DNA of 64,000 nt, taken from NCBI RefSeq assembly GCF_022678645.1, contig NZ_JALBWV010000006.1:1-64000 (forward strand), in the 5' to 3' direction. Every line of letters starts with the position of its first letter. Within the stretch, counting starts at the first letter, position 1. Under the pieces are notes generated by a model. It saw nothing but the letters and a program-made list of their open reading frames with translations, was not told the DNA's origin and made no database searches. This document shows positions 5,583 to 64,000 of the stretch, piece by piece. Position numbers and translations under genes: made by a program. The DNA comes from Saccharopolyspora soli. GTDB taxonomy: Bacteria > Actinomycetota > Actinomycetes > Mycobacteriales > Pseudonocardiaceae.

Positions 5583-5698
5583 GTCCTTTTGGTTTTGAAG
5601 CGGCGAAGCCGCTTGGCCCACCTACGGCACTTGCACCGCTGCGGGTTCTCAGACGGCGTCTGAGGTTCCGCTACCCGCACCGCCACGCAAAACGAGCT
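5583..5698 (-). repeat. Intergenic structured repeat, copy R1 (shortened hairpin)
   Basis: Read on the minus strand it begins with the GCGTGGCGGTGCGGGTAGCG block. It continues with a perfect palindromic stem CTCAGAC-ggc-GTCTGAG (5648-5664), then AACCCGC, and ends with the hairpin AAGCGGC-gaa-GCCGCTT (5598-5614). Compared with R3-R5 the whole apical part of the main hairpin is missing while the stem base is kept. It lies downstream of the minus-strand SDR gene's stop codon and convergent with the trypsin-fold gene. Confidence 0.85.
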
Positions 5699-6749: not shown

Positions 6750-7904
6750 GTGAGCGGTTCGAAACTGCGGCTGCTGTGGGCTGCGCTGGTGGGAGCGCTG
6801 ACGGCGGTGCTGTTGATTTCCGGCTGCGGTTCGCCCGCACCCGAACAGCAGCAACCTGCCGACCCGGTCGCCAAGGTGACTTTCGAACCGGGCATTGGTG
6901 CGGGTGATGTCAATCCCGCCGCGCCGATAAATGCCACAGTCGACCGCGGCAAGTTCGACAGCATCGCGTTGACCAACAGCGACGGCAAGCAGGTCGCGGG
7001 GGAACTGTCGTCGGACGGCAAGAGCTGGCACCCCACCGTGGCGCTCGGCTACGGCAAGAGCTACACGTGGTCCGGCCAGGTCACCGGTGAGGACGGCAAG
7101 CAGGTGCCGGTCCAGGGGCAGTTCAGCACGCTGAAGCCGCAGCGGACGATCCGCGCCACGATCAACCCGACCGACGACGCCGAGGTCGGCATCGCGATGC
7201 CGATCAGCGTGAAGTTCGACAAGCCCGTCAAGGACAAGGCGGCCATCCAGCGGGCGTTGACCGTGCAAACCTCGGTTCCGGTGGAGGGCGCCTGGGCTTG
7301 GCTGTCGGACCAGCAGGTGGACTGGCGGCCGAAGGCGTACTGGCCAGCGCACACCCACGTCAGCGTCAACGCGAAGCTCTACGGCGTCGCCTACGGCGAG
7401 GGCTCCTACGGGCTGGCCGACCTGAGCACCGAGTTCAACATCGGCCGGGCGCAGATCGTGAAAGCCGCCGTGGGGACCCACCGGATGGTCGTGATCCGGG
7501 ACGGCCAGCAGGTGGCCAACTACGCGGCGAGCTACGGCGAGGAGTACGACCCGGGCCGCAACACCCCCAACGGCACCTACATCGTCATGGAGAAGAACCC
7601 GGTCGAGATCATGGACAACCCCAGGTACGGCTACCACGACGTGCGCAAGACGTGGGCGGCCCGGTTCTCCAACCACGGCGAGTTCATCCACGAGAACCAG
7701 GAGAACGCAGCGGCGCTGGGGAAGGTCAACAACTCGCACGGCTGCATCAACCTCAGCGCGGCGGACGCGAAGGAGTACTACGACGGCGCCCTGCTCGGCG
7801 ACCCGGTCGAGGTGACGGGCTCGGCCAGCAGCATGCCACCCCAGTTCGACGTCCTCGACTGGCTGCTCACCTGGGATCAATGGACCCAGAAGTCCGCAGT
7901 CTGA
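6750..7904 (+). CDS. Lipoprotein L,D-transpeptidase (LprQ/LdtMt5-like)
   Basis: Forms 3-3 cross-links in, or anchors proteins to, peptidoglycan outside the membrane. The 384-residue protein begins with a lipoprotein signal whose lipobox LISGC places lipidation on Cys26. Two Ig-like domains (about 40-140 and 140-240) precede a YkuD catalytic domain with HGEFIHENQEN and the active-site motif SHGCINLS (His330, Cys332). The architecture and neighbours match Rv0483. The GTG start has GGATAGAGG upstream. A short tail after the catalytic domain (VLDWLLTWDQW) resembles the C-terminal cap of LdtMt enzymes. Confidence 0.92.
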   Translation: MSGSKLRLLWAALVGALTAVLLISGCGSPAPEQQQPADPVAKVTFEPGIGAGDVNPAAPINATVDRGKFDSIALTNSDGKQVAGELSSDGKSWHPTVALGYGKSYTWSGQVTGEDGKQVPVQGQFSTLKPQRTIRATINPTDDAEVGIAMPISVKFDKPVKDKAAIQRALTVQTSVPVEGAWAWLSDQQVDWRPKAYWPAHTHVSVNAKLYGVAYGEGSYGLADLSTEFNIGRAQIVKAAVGTHRMVVIRDGQQVANYAASYGEEYDPGRNTPNGTYIVMEKNPVEIMDNPRYGYHDVRKTWAARFSNHGEFIHENQENAAALGKVNNSHGCINLSAADAKEYYDGALLGDPVEVTGSASSMPPQFDVLDWLLTWDQWTQKSAV

Positions 7905-7917
7905 GAAGACTGTCTTC

Positions 7918-7974
7918 GGACTCGTTTTGCGTAGCGGTGCGGCGCTAAGCGGCTTCGCCGCTTCAAAAACAAGA
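7918..7974 (+). repeat. Intergenic structured repeat, copy R2 (main hairpin absent)
   Basis: Carries the left boundary CTCGTTTTGCGTAGCGGTGC and then goes directly to CTAAGCGGCTTCGCCGCTTC, the 3' hairpin AAGCGGC-ttc-GCCGCTT (7947-7963), and the AAAAACAAG tail. The entire ~110-base main hairpin present in R3-R5 is missing. It starts just after the L,D-transpeptidase stop codon. The remaining bases to mshA (7975-8225) show no further gene. Confidence 0.8.
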
Positions 7975-18131: not shown

Positions 18132-18188
18132 ATGAACCCGTTGCGCGCATTGGCCGCCGAATGCTTCCGACCGCTGGACCCGACGTGA
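18132..18188 (+). CDS. Possible 18-residue leader peptide
   Basis: ATG at 18132 opens MNPLRALAAECFRPLDPT and stops at TGA 18186-18188. The stop overlaps the likely GTG start of the thioesterase gene (18185) by GTGA. The thioesterase start has no Shine-Dalgarno sequence, so translation may be coupled to this mini-ORF. Evidence is positional only; no homologue is known to me and it may simply be untranslated leader. Confidence 0.3.
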   Translation: MNPLRALAAECFRPLDPT

Positions 18189-18976
18189 CTGAGGTCCTGG
18201 ATCCCTTCGCGGCGGCCACTTCGGTGCGCTCGCTTGGCGACGGCACCTTCGTCGCCAACCTCCATCCGGAATGGGCCGTCGGAGAACGCCCGCACGGCGG
18301 TTACCTGTTGGCGCTGTTGTCCCGCGCCCTCGGTGACGCGACCGGGCTTGCGCCGCTGTCGGTCAGCGCGCAGTTCCTCCGCCCGCCACGAGTCGGTCCG
18401 GTGCTGATCCGGACCGAGCTGCTCAAGACGGGCAAGACGGTGACGGCGGCCCGCGCGGCGCTGGAGCAGAGCGGGCAGACCTGCGTGGATGCCACGATCA
18501 CCCTCGGCAAGGTGCCCACCGCCGAGCCCGAGTGGTCGGACGTGCCCGAGATGCCGGTGAACCCGCCGTCGAACGCGATCGACCTCGCCGCAACCGAGGT
18601 CCGGAAGTACTTCGGGCTTTCGCGGGTCTGCGACATGCGGCTGGACGCCAACACCGCGGAGTTCCTCTCCGGCGGAGTCGGCGAGCCCCGGATGCGGTTC
18701 TGGGTCAAGCCGCGGGAAGCCCAGCCGGATCTGCTGTTCGCGCTGGTCGCCGGGGACCTGACGCTGCCGGTGACGCAGAACCTCGGCCGATTCGGCTGGG
18801 TGCCGACGGTCCAGCTGACCGCGCTGGTGCGGGCGCACCCGGCGAACGGCTGGCTGCGGCTGGTGGTGGGCTGCCGCGCGCTGCACGGCCAGTGGTTCGA
18901 CGAGGACGTCACGGTGATCGACTCGGTGGGCAGACTGGTATGCCAAGCCCGCCAACTAGCCATCGCCCCGCTGTAG
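18185..18976 (+). CDS. Acyl-CoA thioesterase-like protein (double hot-dog)
   Basis: A 263-residue protein with a tandem hot-dog layout of the TesB-like/4HBT_3 type. N-terminal half: WAVGERPHGGYLLALLSRALGDATG and LSVSAQFLRPPRVGPVLIRTELLKTGKTV. C-terminal half: VKPREAQPDLLFALVAGDLTLPV and WVPTVQLTALVRAHPANGWLRLVV, ending ITAPL-like strands. The start is taken at GTG 18185 (MTEVLDPFAAAT), with ATG 18161 in the same frame as the alternative. It sits next to fadD, so a role in acyl-CoA turnover is plausible but inferred. Confidence 0.75.
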   Translation: MTEVLDPFAAATSVRSLGDGTFVANLHPEWAVGERPHGGYLLALLSRALGDATGLAPLSVSAQFLRPPRVGPVLIRTELLKTGKTVTAARAALEQSGQTCVDATITLGKVPTAEPEWSDVPEMPVNPPSNAIDLAATEVRKYFGLSRVCDMRLDANTAEFLSGGVGEPRMRFWVKPREAQPDLLFALVAGDLTLPVTQNLGRFGWVPTVQLTALVRAHPANGWLRLVVGCRALHGQWFDEDVTVIDSVGRLVCQARQLAIAPL

Positions 18977-18989
18977 AGACTGCCCGGGT

Positions 18990-19161
18990 CTTTTGCTTAG
19001 CGGTGCGAGTAGCGGAACCTCAGACGCCTTCTCGACTCCGGGATCCCCGACTTACGTATGACCCAGTACGCGGCGTCGGGGCTGTCCTCGCGAGAAGACG
19101 TTTGAGAACCCGCGGCGGTGCAAGTTGCTGGCGTGGGCTAAGCGCCTTCGGCGCTTGCGAC
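18990..19161 (+). repeat. Intergenic structured repeat, copy R3
   Basis: Full-length copy. Left block TTTTGCTTAGCGGTGCGAGT, main stem arms CTCAGACGCCTTCTCG (19019-19034) and CGAGAAGACGTTTGAG (19091-19106), inner stem CCCCGAC/GTCGGGG, apical CGTA/TACG, then the 3' hairpin AAGCGCC-ttc-GGCGCTT (19140-19156). The 3' hairpin differs from R1, R2 and R4 by a compensatory C-G/G-C swap. It follows the thioesterase stop codon. The remaining bases 19162-19331 hold no gene. Confidence 0.9.
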
Positions 19162-19331
19162 GGCTCGGCAGTGATTCAGTTGCTCGTCGTGGCGGCGGAT
19201 CACCGCCGAAAGCGGCTACGCCGCTTGCCTTCGCGCCGAGCGTGGCGTGCCGCTCGTTGCGAACGGGACTCCCATCTGGCTAAGCCGATCAGAAGTCCCT
19301 CCCCCTGCGACAGTGCGCGCGGATTCCGGAC

Positions 19332-32799: not shown

Positions 32800-34332
32800 A
32801 TGACCCGAGCACGCAAGACCCCCGGACGGATTGCTTTCGTGGGCTCCGGTCCCGGTGACGCGGGACTGCTCACCGTTCGGGGCCGGGACGTGATCACCCG
32901 AGCCGCCCTGCTGGTGACCGACCCGGACGTACCCGCCGACATCATCGGCCTGGCCGCTGACGGCGCCGAGGTGCGCCCCGCCGTGGGCGACCCGGCGGAC
33001 GTGGCCAAAGACCTGACGAACGAGGCGTCGACCGGCCGCACGGTGGTGCGGCTGGTCGCTGGCGACCCGTTGACCGCCGACGCGGTGGTCCGCGAGGTGC
33101 GGGAGGTCGCCAAGACCGGCGCCGCTTTCGACGTGATCCCCGGTGTTTCCAGCGGCAGCGCGGTCCCGGCCTACGCCGGTGTCGCGCTCGGCGCGGTGCA
33201 CACCGAGGTGGATGTCCGAGGTGATGTGGACTGGGCGTCGCTGGCCGCGGTGCCCGGCGCGTTGGTGCTGCACACCACCGGCAGCCACCTGGCAGAGGCC
33301 GCGTCGCGGCTGGTCGAGCACGGCAATCCCGCGCAGACCCCGGTGGCGGTGACCGCCTCCGGCACCACGGTCGCGCAGCGCACCATCGACACGACGCTGG
33401 CCTCGCTGGCCGCCGATGCCGGTGAGCTGCAAGGCCACCTGGTGGTGACCATCGGCGACATCGCTTCCGAGCGCGGCAAGCTGTCCTGGTGGGAGTCCCG
33501 CGCGCTGTACGGCTGGAAGGTGCTGGTGCCGCGCACCAAGGAACAGGCCGGGGCGATGAGCGACCGGCTGTGGTCGCACGGCGCCGTGTCGCACGAGGTG
33601 CCGACGATCTCGGTCGAGCCGCCGCGCAGCCCTGCGCAGATGGAGCGCGCGGTCAAGGGCCTGGTCGACGGCCGCTACCAGTGGGTGGTGTTCACCTCGG
33701 CCAACGCGGTGCGCGCGGTGTGGGAGAAGTTCGGCGAGTTCGGGCTGGACGCGCGGGCCTTCTCCGGGGTCAAGATCGCCTGCGTCGGCGACGCCACCGC
33801 GGCGAAGGTGCGTTCCTTCGGCATCGTGCCGGAGCTGCTGCCTTCCGGTGACCAGTCCAGCGAGGGCCTGCTGCACGACTTCCCGCCGCACGACGACATC
33901 CTCGACCCGGTCGACCGGGTGTTGCTGCCGCGTGCGGACATCGCCACCGAGACGCTGTCGGCCGGGCTGCGCGAGCGCGGCTGGGAGGTCGACGACGTCA
34001 CGGCTTACCGCACGGTTCGGGCCGCGCCGCCGCCAGCGGAAACCCGCGAGATGATCAAGACCGGTGGGTTCGACGCGGTGTGCTTCACCTCGTCGTCCAC
34101 GGTCCGCAACCTGGTCGGCATAGCGGGCAAGCCGCACGCCCGGACGCTGGTGGCCTGCATCGGTCCGAACACCGCGGAAACGGCCAAGGAGTTCGGCCTG
34201 CGGGTGGACGTGCAGCCGGAGGTCCCGCGAGTGGAGGACCTGGTGGATGCGCTCGCCGCGCACGCGGCCAGGCTGCGCGCCGAAGGCGCGCTACCGCCGC
34301 CGCGCAAGGCGAAGCGCGCACGCCGCAGCTGA
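32800..34332 (+). CDS. hemD: Fused uroporphyrinogen-III methyltransferase-like / uroporphyrinogen-III synthase
   Basis: A 510-residue two-domain protein. Residues about 8-240 form a tetrapyrrole (SUMT-like) methylase fold with GSGPGDAGLLTVRG and IPGVSSGSAVPAYAGVAL. Residues about 250-500 form HemD, with YGWKVLVPRTKEQAGAMSDRL, VFTSANAVRAVW, DVTAYRTV and VCFTSSSTVRNL. The usual SUMT motif GDPFVFGRGGEE is replaced by AGDPLTADAVVREV, so the methylase activity may be lost. I use the ATG at 32800, seven bases after GGGGAG; ATG 32785 overlaps the hemC stop and is possible. Last gene of the rex-hem operon. Confidence 0.9.
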   Translation: MTRARKTPGRIAFVGSGPGDAGLLTVRGRDVITRAALLVTDPDVPADIIGLAADGAEVRPAVGDPADVAKDLTNEASTGRTVVRLVAGDPLTADAVVREVREVAKTGAAFDVIPGVSSGSAVPAYAGVALGAVHTEVDVRGDVDWASLAAVPGALVLHTTGSHLAEAASRLVEHGNPAQTPVAVTASGTTVAQRTIDTTLASLAADAGELQGHLVVTIGDIASERGKLSWWESRALYGWKVLVPRTKEQAGAMSDRLWSHGAVSHEVPTISVEPPRSPAQMERAVKGLVDGRYQWVVFTSANAVRAVWEKFGEFGLDARAFSGVKIACVGDATAAKVRSFGIVPELLPSGDQSSEGLLHDFPPHDDILDPVDRVLLPRADIATETLSAGLRERGWEVDDVTAYRTVRAAPPPAETREMIKTGGFDAVCFTSSSTVRNLVGIAGKPHARTLVACIGPNTAETAKEFGLRVDVQPEVPRVEDLVDALAAHAARLRAEGALPPPRKAKRARRS

Positions 34333-34398
34333 TCGCTTCAGCCGAAACGGCGGCTGGGTGGGGAAACCTCCGCCCAGCCGCCGTTTTGAACCTGTCGT

Positions 34399-34581
34399 CC
34401 AAGCTCGTTCTGCGTTGTGGTGCGGGTAGCGGAACCTCGGAAGCCTTCTCGACTCCGGGATCCCCGACATCATGTATGCCGATACGCCACGTCGGGGCTG
34501 TCCTCGCGAGAAGGCTTCTGAGAACCCGCGGCGGTGCCAGCTGCGAGGGTGGCCAAGCGGCTTCGCCGCTTCAAAAACAAG
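34399..34581 (+). repeat. Intergenic structured repeat, copy R4
   Basis: Full-length copy. Main stem arms CTCGGAAGCCTTCTCG (34436-34451) and CGAGAAGGCTTCTGAG (34507-34522) pair over 16 positions with one G-T. Outer GCGGGT/ACCCGC, inner CCCCGAC/GTCGGGG and apical TGTAT/ATACG are visible. The 3' hairpin AAGCGGC-ttc-GCCGCTT and the TCAAAAACAAGATC tail follow. It starts 67 bases after the hemD stop on the same strand. Confidence 0.92.
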
Positions 34582-34586
34582 ATCAC

Positions 34587-43461: not shown

Positions 43462-43560
43462 CGTCGGAGGTTTTCGCGAGGACAGCCCCGGCGTGGCGCG
43501 GCGTACAAAAGCCAGCCGCTTTCGCTGGCATTTGAGCGCGCATTAATGTCGGAGCCCCAC
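43462..43560 (-). repeat. Degenerate copy R9 of the structured repeat
   Basis: On the minus strand the block CACGCCGGGGCTGTCCTCGC followed by GAAAACCTCC corresponds to the right half of R3-R5. The left arm and 3' hairpin are not clearly conserved. Orientation is opposite to the preceding gene, unlike most copies. Confidence 0.5.
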
Positions 43561-48374: not shown

Positions 48375-49006
48375 GCGACGTGAAGACCGTGGTGCACTTC
48401 CTGCGCCACGGTGAAGTGCACAACCCCGAGGGGATCCTCTACGGGCGGCTGCCGGGATACGGGTTGTCGGACCGCGGCGAACAGCAAGCCAAGGTCGTCG
48501 CCGAGTTTCTGGCCGGGCGTGACATCGCCCACGTCGTCGCTTCGCCGCTGCAACGGGCCCAGCAGACCGCCCTGCCGATCAGCGCGATGTGCCAGCTCGA
48601 CGTCGCCACCGACGACCGGCTCATCGAGGCCGACAACCGCTTCGAAGGGCTGAAGGTCTCCGTCGGGGACGGTGCGCTGCGGTCGCCCAAGCACTGGCCG
48701 AAGCTGTGGAACCCGCTTCGGCCGTCGTGGGGCGAGCCGTACCTGAAGATCGCGCACCGCATGCTGGGCGCGGCGCACCGGGCCCGTGCGGCGGCGTCCG
48801 GTCGGGAAGCGGTGTGCGTTTCGCACCAGCTGCCGATCTGGACGCTGCGCCGCTTCCTGGAGGGCAAGCCGATGTGGCACGACCCGCGGCGGCGGCAGTG
48901 CTCGCTGGCGTCGCTGACCAGCCTGGTCTTCCGCGGCGAGGAACTGGTGCGAATCGCCTACGTGGAACCCGCCGGGGGAACCGATCCGAAGGTGACAGGG
49001 GCATGA
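48371..49006 (+). CDS. Histidine phosphatase superfamily protein (Rv0525-like)
   Basis: A 211-residue protein with the phosphohistidine loop [19 protein letters not shown] (His12-type) and a second histidine in [15 protein letters not shown]. It keeps the general histidine-phosphatase fold but lacks the 2,3-BPG mutase substrate loops seen in gpmA, so it is probably a phosphatase with an unknown substrate. It overlaps both hemL and resA by four bases, hence translationally coupled in the haem/cytochrome c operon. Confidence 0.88.
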
Positions 49007-49593
49007 AACAGCTGTTGGTGCGCTTCGGGCTGGTCGCTGCGGCGTTAGCCCTGGTCGGCGGGTGCGCTACCCAGGGCGACGACGCAGTTTCGCAGGGCAG
49101 CGAGTTCACCTTCGTCTCGCCCGGCGGGCAGACCCGGCTCTTCTACCCGCAGCAGGAGCGCGGCCGGGTCTCCGGGCTGGCTGGCGAAAGCCTCCTGGAA
49201 CCGGGCAAGCAGATCGGGCTGGACGACTTCAAGGGCCAGGTCGTGGTCCTGAACATCTGGGGCTCGTGGTGCGGACCGTGCCGGTCCGAAGCCGACGATC
49301 TGCAGGCGGTGCAGGACAAGACCGCCAGCCAAGGGGTACAGGTGCTCGGCGTCGACGTGCGGGACAGCCGCTCGGCGGCGACCGACTTCCACCGCGACCG
49401 GCAGCTGACCTACCCGTCGATCTTCGACCCGGCGGGGCGATCGCTATTGGCCCTGCGCCAGTTCCCGCGCAGCACCGTGCCAGCGACGATCGTGCTCGAC
49501 CGGCAACACCGGGTCGCGGCGATCTTCCTGGAGGCGATGTTGGAAAGCGACCTGCTCCCCGAGGTGCAGAAGGTCGCCGCCGAACCGCGTTGA
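49003..49593 (+). CDS. resA: Membrane-anchored thiol-disulfide oxidoreductase ResA/TlpA-like
   Basis: Outward-facing thioredoxin-fold lipoprotein that keeps apocytochrome c cysteines reduced. The 196-residue protein has a lipobox LVGGC (Cys21), the core VVLNIWGSWCGPCRSEADDLQ with Cys90 and Cys93, and the cis-Pro loop FPRSTVPATIVLDRQHRVA. Overlaps the preceding stop (ATGA). Expected to receive electrons from CcdA, encoded after the repeat R5. Gene symbol assigned by similarity and context. Confidence 0.9.
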   Translation: MKQLLVRFGLVAAALALVGGCATQGDDAVSQGSEFTFVSPGGQTRLFYPQQERGRVSGLAGESLLEPGKQIGLDDFKGQVVVLNIWGSWCGPCRSEADDLQAVQDKTASQGVQVLGVDVRDSRSAATDFHRDRQLTYPSIFDPAGRSLLALRQFPRSTVPATIVLDRQHRVAAIFLEAMLESDLLPEVQKVAAEPR

Positions 49594-49611: not shown

Positions 49612-49797
49612 TCGAACTCGTTTTGCGTTGCGGTGCGGGTAGCGGAACCTCAGGGGCTTTCTCGACTCCGGGATCCCCGACATCATGTATGTCCGATACA
49701 CCGCGTCGTGGCTGTCCTCGCGAGAAAGCCCCTGAGAACCCGCGGCGGTGCCAGTTGCGCACGTGGGCTAAGCGGCTGGCGCCGCTTCAAAAACAAG
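49612..49797 (+). repeat. Intergenic structured repeat, copy R5
   Basis: Full-length copy with a perfect main stem: CTCAGGGGCTTTCTCG (49649-49664) and CGAGAAAGCCCCTGAG (49721-49736). Outer GCGGGT/ACCCGC, inner CCCCGAC/GTCGTGG (one mismatch) and apical TGTAT/ATACA are seen. The 3' hairpin AAGCGGC-tggc-GCCGCTT and TTCAAAAACAAGATC follow. It begins 19 bases after the resA stop. The next ~290 bases up to ccdA (49798-50086) show no gene; TACCCT at 50075-50080 is a likely leaderless -10 box for ccdA. Confidence 0.92.
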
Positions 49798-55541: not shown

Positions 55542-55782
55542 CGTGGCCACCTCCAACTGTCCCGCTTCGAGATTAGCCAATCCCAGCTGCGGTTGTCGTC
55601 GTCGTAGGTGGCACGGTGGCACGGCGGATCCAGGTGGCGCCTCGCTGGTGGGCGAGGAACCACCTCGATCGGCGGTCGTCGGCGGACCGCCAGCGATCTT
55701 CAGATCTTCGTCAGGGGCGCTCCAGCGGTTGTGGGCATCCCCATTCGGTCCCAGGTGGGCGGCGCGCACGCCGCTGACTCGG

Positions 55783-55900
55783 ACCTTCGCGGATTCTCAG
55801 GCGTCGTCTCGCTGGTGCAGGGCCCCCCGCGTGGTGACGGTGATTCCTGGGGCGAGGCGGCGTCTGAGGTTCCGCTATCGGCACGCTGTGCGAGCCGATC
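55783..55900 (-). repeat. Intergenic structured repeat, copy R6
   Basis: On the plus strand the arms are CTCAGGCGTCGTCTCG (55796-55811) and CGAGGCGGCGTCTGAG (55853-55868), a 16-bp stem with three G-T pairs; on the minus strand it reads TAGCGGAACCTCAG at the left. The inner loop differs completely from R3-R5, and the 3' hairpin is not recognised. It is downstream of bldC on the same strand. Apart from it, 55542-55936 holds no gene. Confidence 0.75.
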
Positions 55901-61678: not shown

Positions 61679-61769
61679 GTGAGTCATCTTCGCGCACGGG
61701 CACGGGCAGTCGGCGAGAGCCTCCCCGCAGCGGTCCGGAGAGTGCGCGGATCGGCTCGCATGACGTACG

Positions 61770-61835
61770 TCTCAACGCCACGTCGGGGTCGTCGCGAGAA
61801 AACCTCTGAGAATCCCGTGGCGCCGCTTGGTGGAA
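61770..61835 (+). repeat. Partial copy R7 of the structured repeat
   Basis: Right half only: CGCCACGTCGGGGTCGTCGC, the right arm CGAGAAAACCTCTGAG (61795-61810) and AATCCCGTGGCGCCGCTT. No matching left arm is present. It lies between the start of menA and the end of menE. Confidence 0.6.
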
Positions 61836-63156: not shown

Positions 63157-63439
63157 CCGCCCATTGTTGACGAGCCCAGGTCCGGCGAACTCCGGTGCCC
63201 CGGCGAGAGGTTCCGCACTCGATCACCTGTTCTAGCGATCAAGTGTTCGAATCATCGGGTCGATGGGATTAGTACGCGGCTGGAAAGGAGCAACGGAAAT
63301 GATGGTCTTTATCGTGCTGATGTGCCCGGCTGACCTGCTGGTCGATCTCTTCGACAGGTCGGCGGATGAACATGAGCGGGACCGGTTTCGGGCCGGAGCA
63401 ACCGACTCCGGGCCGTCCGAATCCGGTCCCGACGACTCT

Positions 63440-63521
63440 GGCATACACGATGTCGGAGATCCCGGACCGAGAAGGCTTCTGAGGATCCGCTACGCGCACC
63501 GCCACGCAAAAGGAGTTCGAA
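63440..63521 (-). repeat. Partial copy R8 of the structured repeat
   Basis: On the minus strand: CCTTTTGCGTGGCGGTGCGC, TAGCGGATCCTCAG, left main arm (plus-strand 63468-63483 CGAGAAGGCTTCTGAG), then the CCGGGATCTCCGACATCGTG loop part. The right arm and 3' hairpin are lost. It starts just after the menB stop on the same strand. The rest of 63157-63439 contains no gene. Confidence 0.75.
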
Positions 63522-63529
63522 GCAGGCTC

Positions 63530-64000
63530 TCAGAAGCACCAGGGGAAGGAGGACCAGTCTGGGGTTCTTTTCTGCAGGAACGCATCGCGTCCTTCGACGG
63601 CTTCGTCGGTCATGTAGGCGAGGCGGGTGGTCTCGCCAGCGAACAGTTGTTGGCCGATCAGTCCGTCGTCGATGGCGTTGAACGCGTATTTGAGCATGCG
63701 TTGAGCGGTCGGGGATTTGCCGTTGATCTCCCGGGCCCACTGCAACGCGGTGGCCTCCAACTCGTCGTGGGGGACGACCTCGTTGACCATGCCCATCTGG
63801 TGGGCCTGCTCGGCGGTGTAGGGGCGTCCCAGGAAGAAGATCTCGCGGGCGAATTTCTGGCCGACCTGGCGGGCGAGGTAGGCCGAGCCGAAGCCGCCGT
63901 CGAAACTCCCGACATCGGCATCGGTCTGCTTGAAACGGGCGTGCTCGGCGCTGGCCAGCGTGAGATCGCACACGACGTGCAGGCTGTGTCCGCCACCAGC
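63530..64000 (-). CDS. menB: 1,4-dihydroxy-2-naphthoyl-CoA synthase MenB (C-terminal part, cut by the window edge)
   Basis: Crotonase-family enzyme that closes the naphthoquinone ring. The last 156 residues are present and the 5' end lies beyond base 64000. Visible motifs are [16 protein letters not shown] at the edge, the oxyanion/active-site region [19 protein letters not shown], [25 protein letters not shown] and the C-terminal [14 protein letters not shown] that completes the active site of the neighbouring subunit. Adjacent to menE and near menA. Identity is secure despite the truncation. Confidence 0.92.

Follow-up and report, generated by a model that had tools for sequence, protein, structure and literature searches.

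Repeat R4 is one copy of a real, widespread, covarying and mobile element, about 240 copies of which were found in the genome (9.35 Mb) containing the window, i.e. the whole 64-kb stretch of DNA analysed here. The placement of this element, one-sided with respect to stop codons and maintained across genera with different ends, is surprising and is not explained by known IS5-type transposition. It is probably a non-autonomous, REP-like 3'-UTR hairpin, mobilised by IS5-family elements and retained where it stands close behind a stop codon in one orientation, with a putative function.

A high-copy element at the 3' ends of central genes (gap-pgk, clpP, proteasome ATPase) in a clade of antibiotic producers offers a testable case of mobile hairpins turning into 3'-UTR elements. 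Its one-sided placement rule finds no explanation in a symmetric transposition target, and the many natural replicates per genome provide a way to separate insertion targeting from selective retention. Annotation of gene 3' ends in these genomes would then have to include it.

Copies of the element in the window

The element occupied nine places in the window, as three full copies, one copy with an internal deletion, one diverged copy, one left half, one core-less derivative and two fragments. The sequence-only reading had given positions for R3, R4 and R5 and ascribed a common layout to them, which was borne out by reading of the sequence and by alignment of the copies. The features are the following:

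32839..34332 (+): gene upstream of R4, tetrapyrrole methylase / uroporphyrinogen-III synthase (PF00590 + PF02602)
34387..34389 (+): TGA occupying the TNA target position immediately left of R4; it does not serve as a stop codon here (read from the sequence)
34390..34410 (+): R4 left end, IS5-type terminal inverted repeat (ACCTGTCGTCCAAGCTCGTTC), from alignment with other copies
34411..34575 (+): R4 structured core and 3' hairpin (model R1, 178.8 bits, R4 being among the model's training sequences)
34436..34451 (+): R4 main stem, 5' arm, starting with the CTC(A/G)G motif (nested copies landed at CTCAG)
34462..34468 (+): R4 inner stem, 5' arm CCCCGAC
34491..34497 (+): R4 inner stem, 3' arm GTCGGGG
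34507..34522 (+): R4 main stem, 3' arm
34555..34571 (+): R4 3' hairpin, AAGCGGC-TTC-GCCGCTT
34572..34584 (+): R4 right end, truncated terminal inverted repeat
18994..19160 (+): R3 core and 3' hairpin, with the TAG of an acyl-CoA thioesterase gene (18185-18976) 17 nt upstream
49624..49791 (+): R5 core and 3' hairpin, 30 nt behind the stop of an AhpC/TSA-type gene (49003-49593) and bearing a TCA/TCA target duplication
5594..5689 (-): internally deleted copy that retains a short CTCAGACG/CGTCTGAG hairpin
7921..7973 (+): core-less derivative, consisting only of both ends and the 3' hairpin, after the TGA of an L,D-transpeptidase gene (6750-7904)
55779..55884 (-): diverged copy, main-stem pairing kept (by eye)
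63428..63518 (-): left half of a copy, immediately behind the TGA of a - strand gene called at 63530-63973
43471-43507 and 61759-61832: two fragments of the element

A terminator-like hairpin lies between the stop of the gene at 32839..34332 and R4. R3, R4 and R5 were at first taken to lie all between convergent genes; gene calling then placed R5 between tandem genes, and this reading was given up. At orthologous R4 loci of other species no copy was seen; the downstream genes differ there, so that no clean empty site was available. Relatives varied at the R3 site: the G014 copy had a stem with different pairing, those of G005 and G006 were truncated and inverted, and G008 had none. The G014 copies at this site and at the proteasome-ATPase site (see below) may be either orthologous to or independent of those in the window's genome. 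R3 and similar copies possessed a longer 3' tail (window positions 19204-19230) with a second hairpin (CCGAAAGCGGCTACGCCGCTTGCC), also present in several other copies. Near the R3 site (loci L132-L135), a second repeated palindrome of the genus, about GCGATTTCAATGGAAATC...GATTTCCATTGAAATCGC, was encountered at the same intergenic place in several relatives.

Copy number, distribution and novelty

A conserved 18-base motif of the element, allowing at most two mismatches, was detected at 244 sites of the window's genome compared with seven for a control, and was divided almost evenly between strands (127 and 117). When R4 was compared with this genome by blastn, 331 first-look candidates were obtained, of which 40 were scored, yielding 43 listed matches; 40 of these 43 were copies displaying 85-100% identity (R4 included), and the remaining three were weak matches or echoes of the palindrome.

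Among 61 genomes examined by blastn, 25 contained the element: 21 out of 22 from the genus, four out of 15 from the rest of the family and none out of 24 from outside the family. A covariance-model survey of the family recovered it in 55 of 200 genomes and in 13 of 46 sampled genera (own genus counted), while none of 295 further genomes from a sample of the class, which included at least one member of the same family, matched the model. These two surveys scored 14 and nine candidates per genome, respectively, so that copy numbers are floors and weak copies are missed. The 20-kb stretches analysed were picked partly around known copies, and the density of copies within them is uninformative on the genome. 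The protein encoded upstream of R4 had its best match, 95% identical, among named Saccharopolyspora species, in a comparison that may lack the window's own record; its relatives thus place the host in Saccharopolyspora.

The statement made from the sequence alone that the element had no named family agrees with Rfam, which gave no match to the window at gathering level. Nine sub-threshold Rfam matches were recorded around R4 (E 0.15 and worse), eight of them on the neighbouring upstream terminator, and membership in an Rfam family was ruled out on this basis. A plasmid or phage origin was likewise discarded, as blastn of R4 against both collections returned no match. No description of the R4 element was found in the open-licence PMC literature, as judged from listings. 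The transcriptome of S. erythraea is reported to include 190 putative ncRNAs (Marcellin 2013; PMC3610266).

Structure and covariation

The element totals ~180-250 bp and comprises a core of ~130 nt folded into a covarying hairpin, the 3' hairpin and short ends on either side. The predicted fold of R4 reached -93.2 kcal/mol versus -70.1 (sd 4.1) for shuffled sequences (z -5.7), none of 200 shuffles being as low; the opposite strand yielded a z of -3.9.

Covariation was assessed on alignment A2. It comprised 47 of the 55 distinct full copies collected in the window's genome and in relatives; the other eight, chimeric or strongly rearranged, were omitted. Thirty-six pairs were counted, belonging to the main, inner, apical and 3' hairpins and to a nearly invariant GCGG/CCGC foot. 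Pairing was observed in 97.4% of cells, as opposed to a shuffled mean of 88.7%, and double-sided changes affected 21 of the 36 pairs and 120 cells, as opposed to shuffled means of 9.0 and 28.1. None of 500 shuffles reached the observed value on any of five measures, and only 39-47% of cells were paired when pairing partners were slid by one to three columns. Double changes were frequent in the main stem (11 of 13 pairs). The compensating differences that the sequence-only reading had noticed among three copies were thus upheld over 47 for the main stem, the inner stem and the 3' hairpin. The outer GCGGGT/ACCCGC helix that it had proposed was not: it displayed no double change and a pairing level (92.9%) identical to that of shuffles (92.9%), and the nearly invariant GCGG/CCGC beside it fits at least as well. 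Twelve unpaired columns of the core were identical in all 47 copies, among them an AAC flanking the main stem on both sides and C, G and TC in the internal loop.

Were each copy selected for its + strand RNA, G-U departures would be expected to outnumber A-C departures. Over the stems from the main stem on, i.e. omitting the first 12 pairs, single-side departures from pairing were distributed as 24 G-U to 25 A-C (46 rows from the window's genome) and 8 to 12 (23 rows from two relatives); over all 44 pairs the figures were 30:25 and 11:12. The rows were the best primary matches (46 of the 88 in alignment A3 and 23 of the 42 in A4), with weak, partial and opposite-strand matches omitted. This equality argues against simple selection on RNA in place. 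Of the earlier suggestion that folding is selected as an RNA structure, the strong covariation stood, and selection on + strand RNA was not borne out, G-U not being favoured over A-C. The stem is renewed, but not evidently as RNA in place.

Covariation may also arise without selection, if template switching between the arms of a palindrome rewrites one arm from the other; this would keep the stem paired in any old quasi-palindrome. Both the equal G-U and A-C departures and the multi-base blocks that differ together between copies (TTCTCG/CGAGAA versus GCCTGG/CCAGGC) are in line with such a process. Arm correction alone, however, would not keep the 12 invariant unpaired columns, and the stem differences at gap-pgk include single steps through G-U pairs. 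We regard template switching as an unlikely source of the covariation.

In chimeric copies (L128:868-1049, L051:12067-12268, L023:3884-4095 and L154:8505-8685), an alternative right arm, about GGAACCCCAGAGGGGTGGGCACCGTGAACCCGC, was found unpaired with the left arm and able to form a hairpin of its own.

Ends, target duplications and an IS5-family partner

Many Saccharopolyspora copies ended in imperfect inverted repeats ((G)NGCCTGTCTT..GAAC), with GAGCCTGTCTTCGAACTCGTTTTG as the approximate left end and CAAAAACAAGATCAAAGACAGGCAC as the approximate right end. Terminal inverted repeats were thus found for the common Saccharopolyspora type, while other end types were weaker, decayed or recognised by eye only. 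Some copies were flanked by 3-bp TNA repeats and several lacked any duplication. Duplications read by eye were TCA/TCA (R5 and L024:18763), TGA/TGA (L164, L151) and TAA/TAA (L161).

An empty site was identified at the stop codon of the gene for the proteasome ATPase (C-terminus GQYL). It read GGCC-TTA-CAGG in G008 and G017 and TTCC-TTA-CAGG in G005, and the filled site of the window's genome read GGCC-TTA-[element]-TTA-CAGG, an exact duplication. At the same stop, G006 harboured an element of another subfamily in the same orientation between TTA copies, and a third copy stood behind the proteasome ATPase in G014. The ends of the G006 copy were different (GAGCCTGTYGGYGAATG); IS5 relatives in G006, G008 and G021 ended in GAGACTGTTGGGTAAC or a sequence close to it, which is similar to these ends but not the same.

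A partner with matching ends was encountered in G003, a single-contig relative. The end TGCCTGTCTTTGAAC was present there at 82 + 81 sites with at most one mismatch (control, 0), and three end pairs located 960 bp apart enclosed an IS5-family transposase gene. This 960-bp IS displayed TGCCTGTCTTTGATC at both ends and had 15-bp ends in common with the G003 element (TGCCTGTCTTTGA(A/T)C). Its transposase matched PF13340 and PF01609, and NF033580 (IS5) with 199.5 bits for a cut-off of 110. Nine full copies (99-100% identity) and one split copy were found, and we infer from these identical copies in one species that the IS was recently active. According to a motif test, eight of the nine full copies were inserted inside element copies at CTCAG, a C-TNA-G site; flanks were read for eight IS copies, two being identical and possibly representing one duplicated place. 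The IS copies themselves followed no stop-codon placement rule. In the window's genome, a 59% identical transposase was flanked by GAGCCTGTTCTTGAACTTG behind TGA, with ends similar but not identical. For the other kinds of ends, no IS with exactly matching ends was found.

These inverted ends, TNA duplications, the empty site and the IS5-family IS with matching ends support the proposal of a mobile palindromic element, and the element is a non-autonomous mobile element. Copy L286 of genus g68 possessed other inverted ends, TTTCAG(A/T)ATGATT, and L283 displayed the same left end (by eye). One core thus goes with several kinds of ends.

At G003 loci including L193 and L195, copies sat inside other copies, in each case at the core's CTCAG; nested insertions were read in both orientations. 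A third palindrome, about GTGAGTGTTTTGG...CTATAG...CCAAAACACTCAC, was observed at L126, L046 and L045 and at IS loci of G014 (L217, L223, L228, L231, L234, L236). Six G014 IS5 copies abutted its CTATAG centre on the printed flanks, which indicates that these IS5 relatives, too, land in a repeat.

An immobile family of dispersed cis-regulatory elements or small RNAs, maintained at the 3' ends of genes, would agree with the covariation, the 3'-UTR position and the copy behind gap in four species, but is contradicted for at least one copy by the empty site with its TNA duplication, and has against it the inverted ends shared with an IS and the nested copies; it is very improbable. A REP element mobilised by a Y1 transposase of the RAYT type is equally improbable. 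High copy number, extragenic location near stops and a GT(A/G)G head, present immediately 5' of the palindrome in 45 of the 47 copies, would point to it. PF01797 was detected in only nine of 22 genus genomes and was not found in the element-rich G003 and G014; moreover, six Y1 loci taken from 35 listed matches showed no convincing element copy within ~1.5 kb, one match to the element there having an E of 0.07. RAYT/REP membership was rejected on the transposase link, no examined Y1 gene being flanked by inverted element copies.

Placement behind stop codons

The left end was located within 30 nt (stop to core) of a co-directional stop in 59 out of 108 copies, whereas 7.5 were expected (p ~1e-39), and stop-to-core distances peaked at 20 and 22 nt. 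For the right end and an opposing stop, the same 30-nt limit gave 10 copies, with 7.5 expected (p 0.21). Copies adjacent on one side only amounted to 57 left versus 8 right. The expectation for each side was derived from non-coding TNA sites with random orientation, and genes were called with our own codon-usage script, not a standard gene finder. The set omits two L246 matches duplicating L182 copies, weak matches and secondary opposite-strand matches. Preference for a TNA target alone is adequate for the right count but was ruled out for the left excess. An outward promoter was rejected by argument as cause of the orientation bias: between convergent genes a gene lies ahead in either orientation, yet it is the left end that adjoins the stop.

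A further 33 copies, at most two or three per species, included 23 left-adjacent and 2 right-adjacent ones (21 and 2 out of 31 without L032 and L277, already present among the 108). Among the 33, 14 copies came from seven other genera; 11 of these 14 were left-adjacent, one of them doubtfully (L288, by a gene call overlapping the core), and none of the 14 was right-adjacent. Left ends in these genera were mostly unlike the Saccharopolyspora repeat, L279 and L293 matching it in part (by eye), and for this reason the placement rule seems to belong to the core.

Within the window, R3 obeyed the rule (17 nt), R5 did so loosely (30 nt) and R4 is not stop-adjacent, 78 nt separating its left side from the hemD stop. 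At the proteasome-ATPase site the element stands between the stop and a terminator-like hairpin. It also resides inside operons, between gap and pgk in the four species looked at, and stands behind clpP in two species, clpX being next in the window's genome.

Stops beside the element in the placement set were TGA (37), TAG (16) and TAA (6), compared with 1291, 201 and 86, respectively, for all called gene ends; TAG and TAA were over-represented beside the element.

Retention or targeting

The preferred reading, retention of IS5-mobilised copies, would operate as follows. IS5-family transposases would move the element in trans, and the core, carried with different ends, would follow different ISs. 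A hairpin behind a stop would form the first part of the transcribed 3' UTR. Copies so placed and oriented may be kept either because a transcribed core is best tolerated there or because it acts on the mRNA (decay, translation termination), much as REPs act in E. coli.

Alternatively, insertion itself could put the left end after stops through a property of the core, such as a structured strand or a bound factor engaging transcribed or translated gene ends. Such orientation-specific targeting is possible, if doubtful. It is favoured by the validity of the rule across copies with different ends, and by the proteasome-ATPase stop, where the window's genome and G006 received independent insertions of different subfamilies and ends in the same orientation, each with a TTA duplication. 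The symmetric TNA target, however, offers no reason for an orientation, and nested insertions occur in both.

Age comparisons, performed on 100 of the 108 placement copies, bear on the two readings. Left-adjacent copies numbered 29 among the younger 50 and 28 among the older 50, and this equality agrees with targeting. The youngest quarter displayed 12 left-adjacent and 4 right-adjacent copies versus 15 and 0 in the oldest (p 0.10), which points to retention, and, under a post hoc cut, copies with the closest relatives were less often left-adjacent than the others (5/16 versus 52/84, p 0.03). Taken together, these comparisons weakly favour retention over targeting, without deciding.

Conservation of shared sites was mixed. 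At gap-pgk, the core was identical at 115 of 127 positions between the window's genome and G014, versus 6 of 16 in the left flank and 136 of 192 in the right one; at a second site common to both genomes, 105 of 114 core positions were identical versus 23 of 45 and 67 of 99 in flanking non-coding DNA. The core of gap-pgk was not better conserved than the right flank between G005 and G004 (109/126 versus 110/120) or between G005 and G014 (111/127 versus 104/121), and the G005 copy had a decayed stem. Core identity might also have been raised by gene conversion between copies.

A bolder form of targeting, in which the core would be a stop-codon-homing module that swaps transposon ends between IS types and directs one-orientation insertion behind stops via transcription or translation termination, appears improbable. 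We know of no such targeting mode for DDE transposons.

Comparison with known systems

Like ERIC, Correia and QMITE2 repeats, the element is intergenic, and some of these are situated at gene 3' ends; effects on mRNA decay are reported for ERIC and Correia (PMC10969869). Compared by description only, they differ in that the placement rule is absent from the portions of their descriptions considered here.

REP elements resemble it in their many copies, their 3'-UTR palindromes and their GT(A/G)G head. REP palindromes are kept by complementary changes (PMC2817692), and E. coli REPs cause ribosomes to stall when located at most 15 nt from a stop codon (PMC5082802, citing Liang et al. 2015). A REP is a single palindrome of about 20-40 nt (table of PMC2817692), whereas the present core spans ~130 nt with nested stems and a 3' hairpin. 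The element, ~150 nt with several stems, further differs from REPs by its IS5-type ends and TNA duplications, and no RAYT link was found.

With IS5-derived MITEs the element has in common its short length, its intergenic location, and terminal inverted repeats and a 3-bp duplication shared with an IS5-family IS. MITE transcripts that fold are described in a MITE review (PMC10969869), in the main text of which 'stop codon' and 'orientation' each occur zero times. Unlike these MITEs, the element displays a long, strongly covarying core associated with several end types, and an orientation-specific position after stops. In Saccharopolyspora it fits the definition of a MITE, and its position is REP-like.
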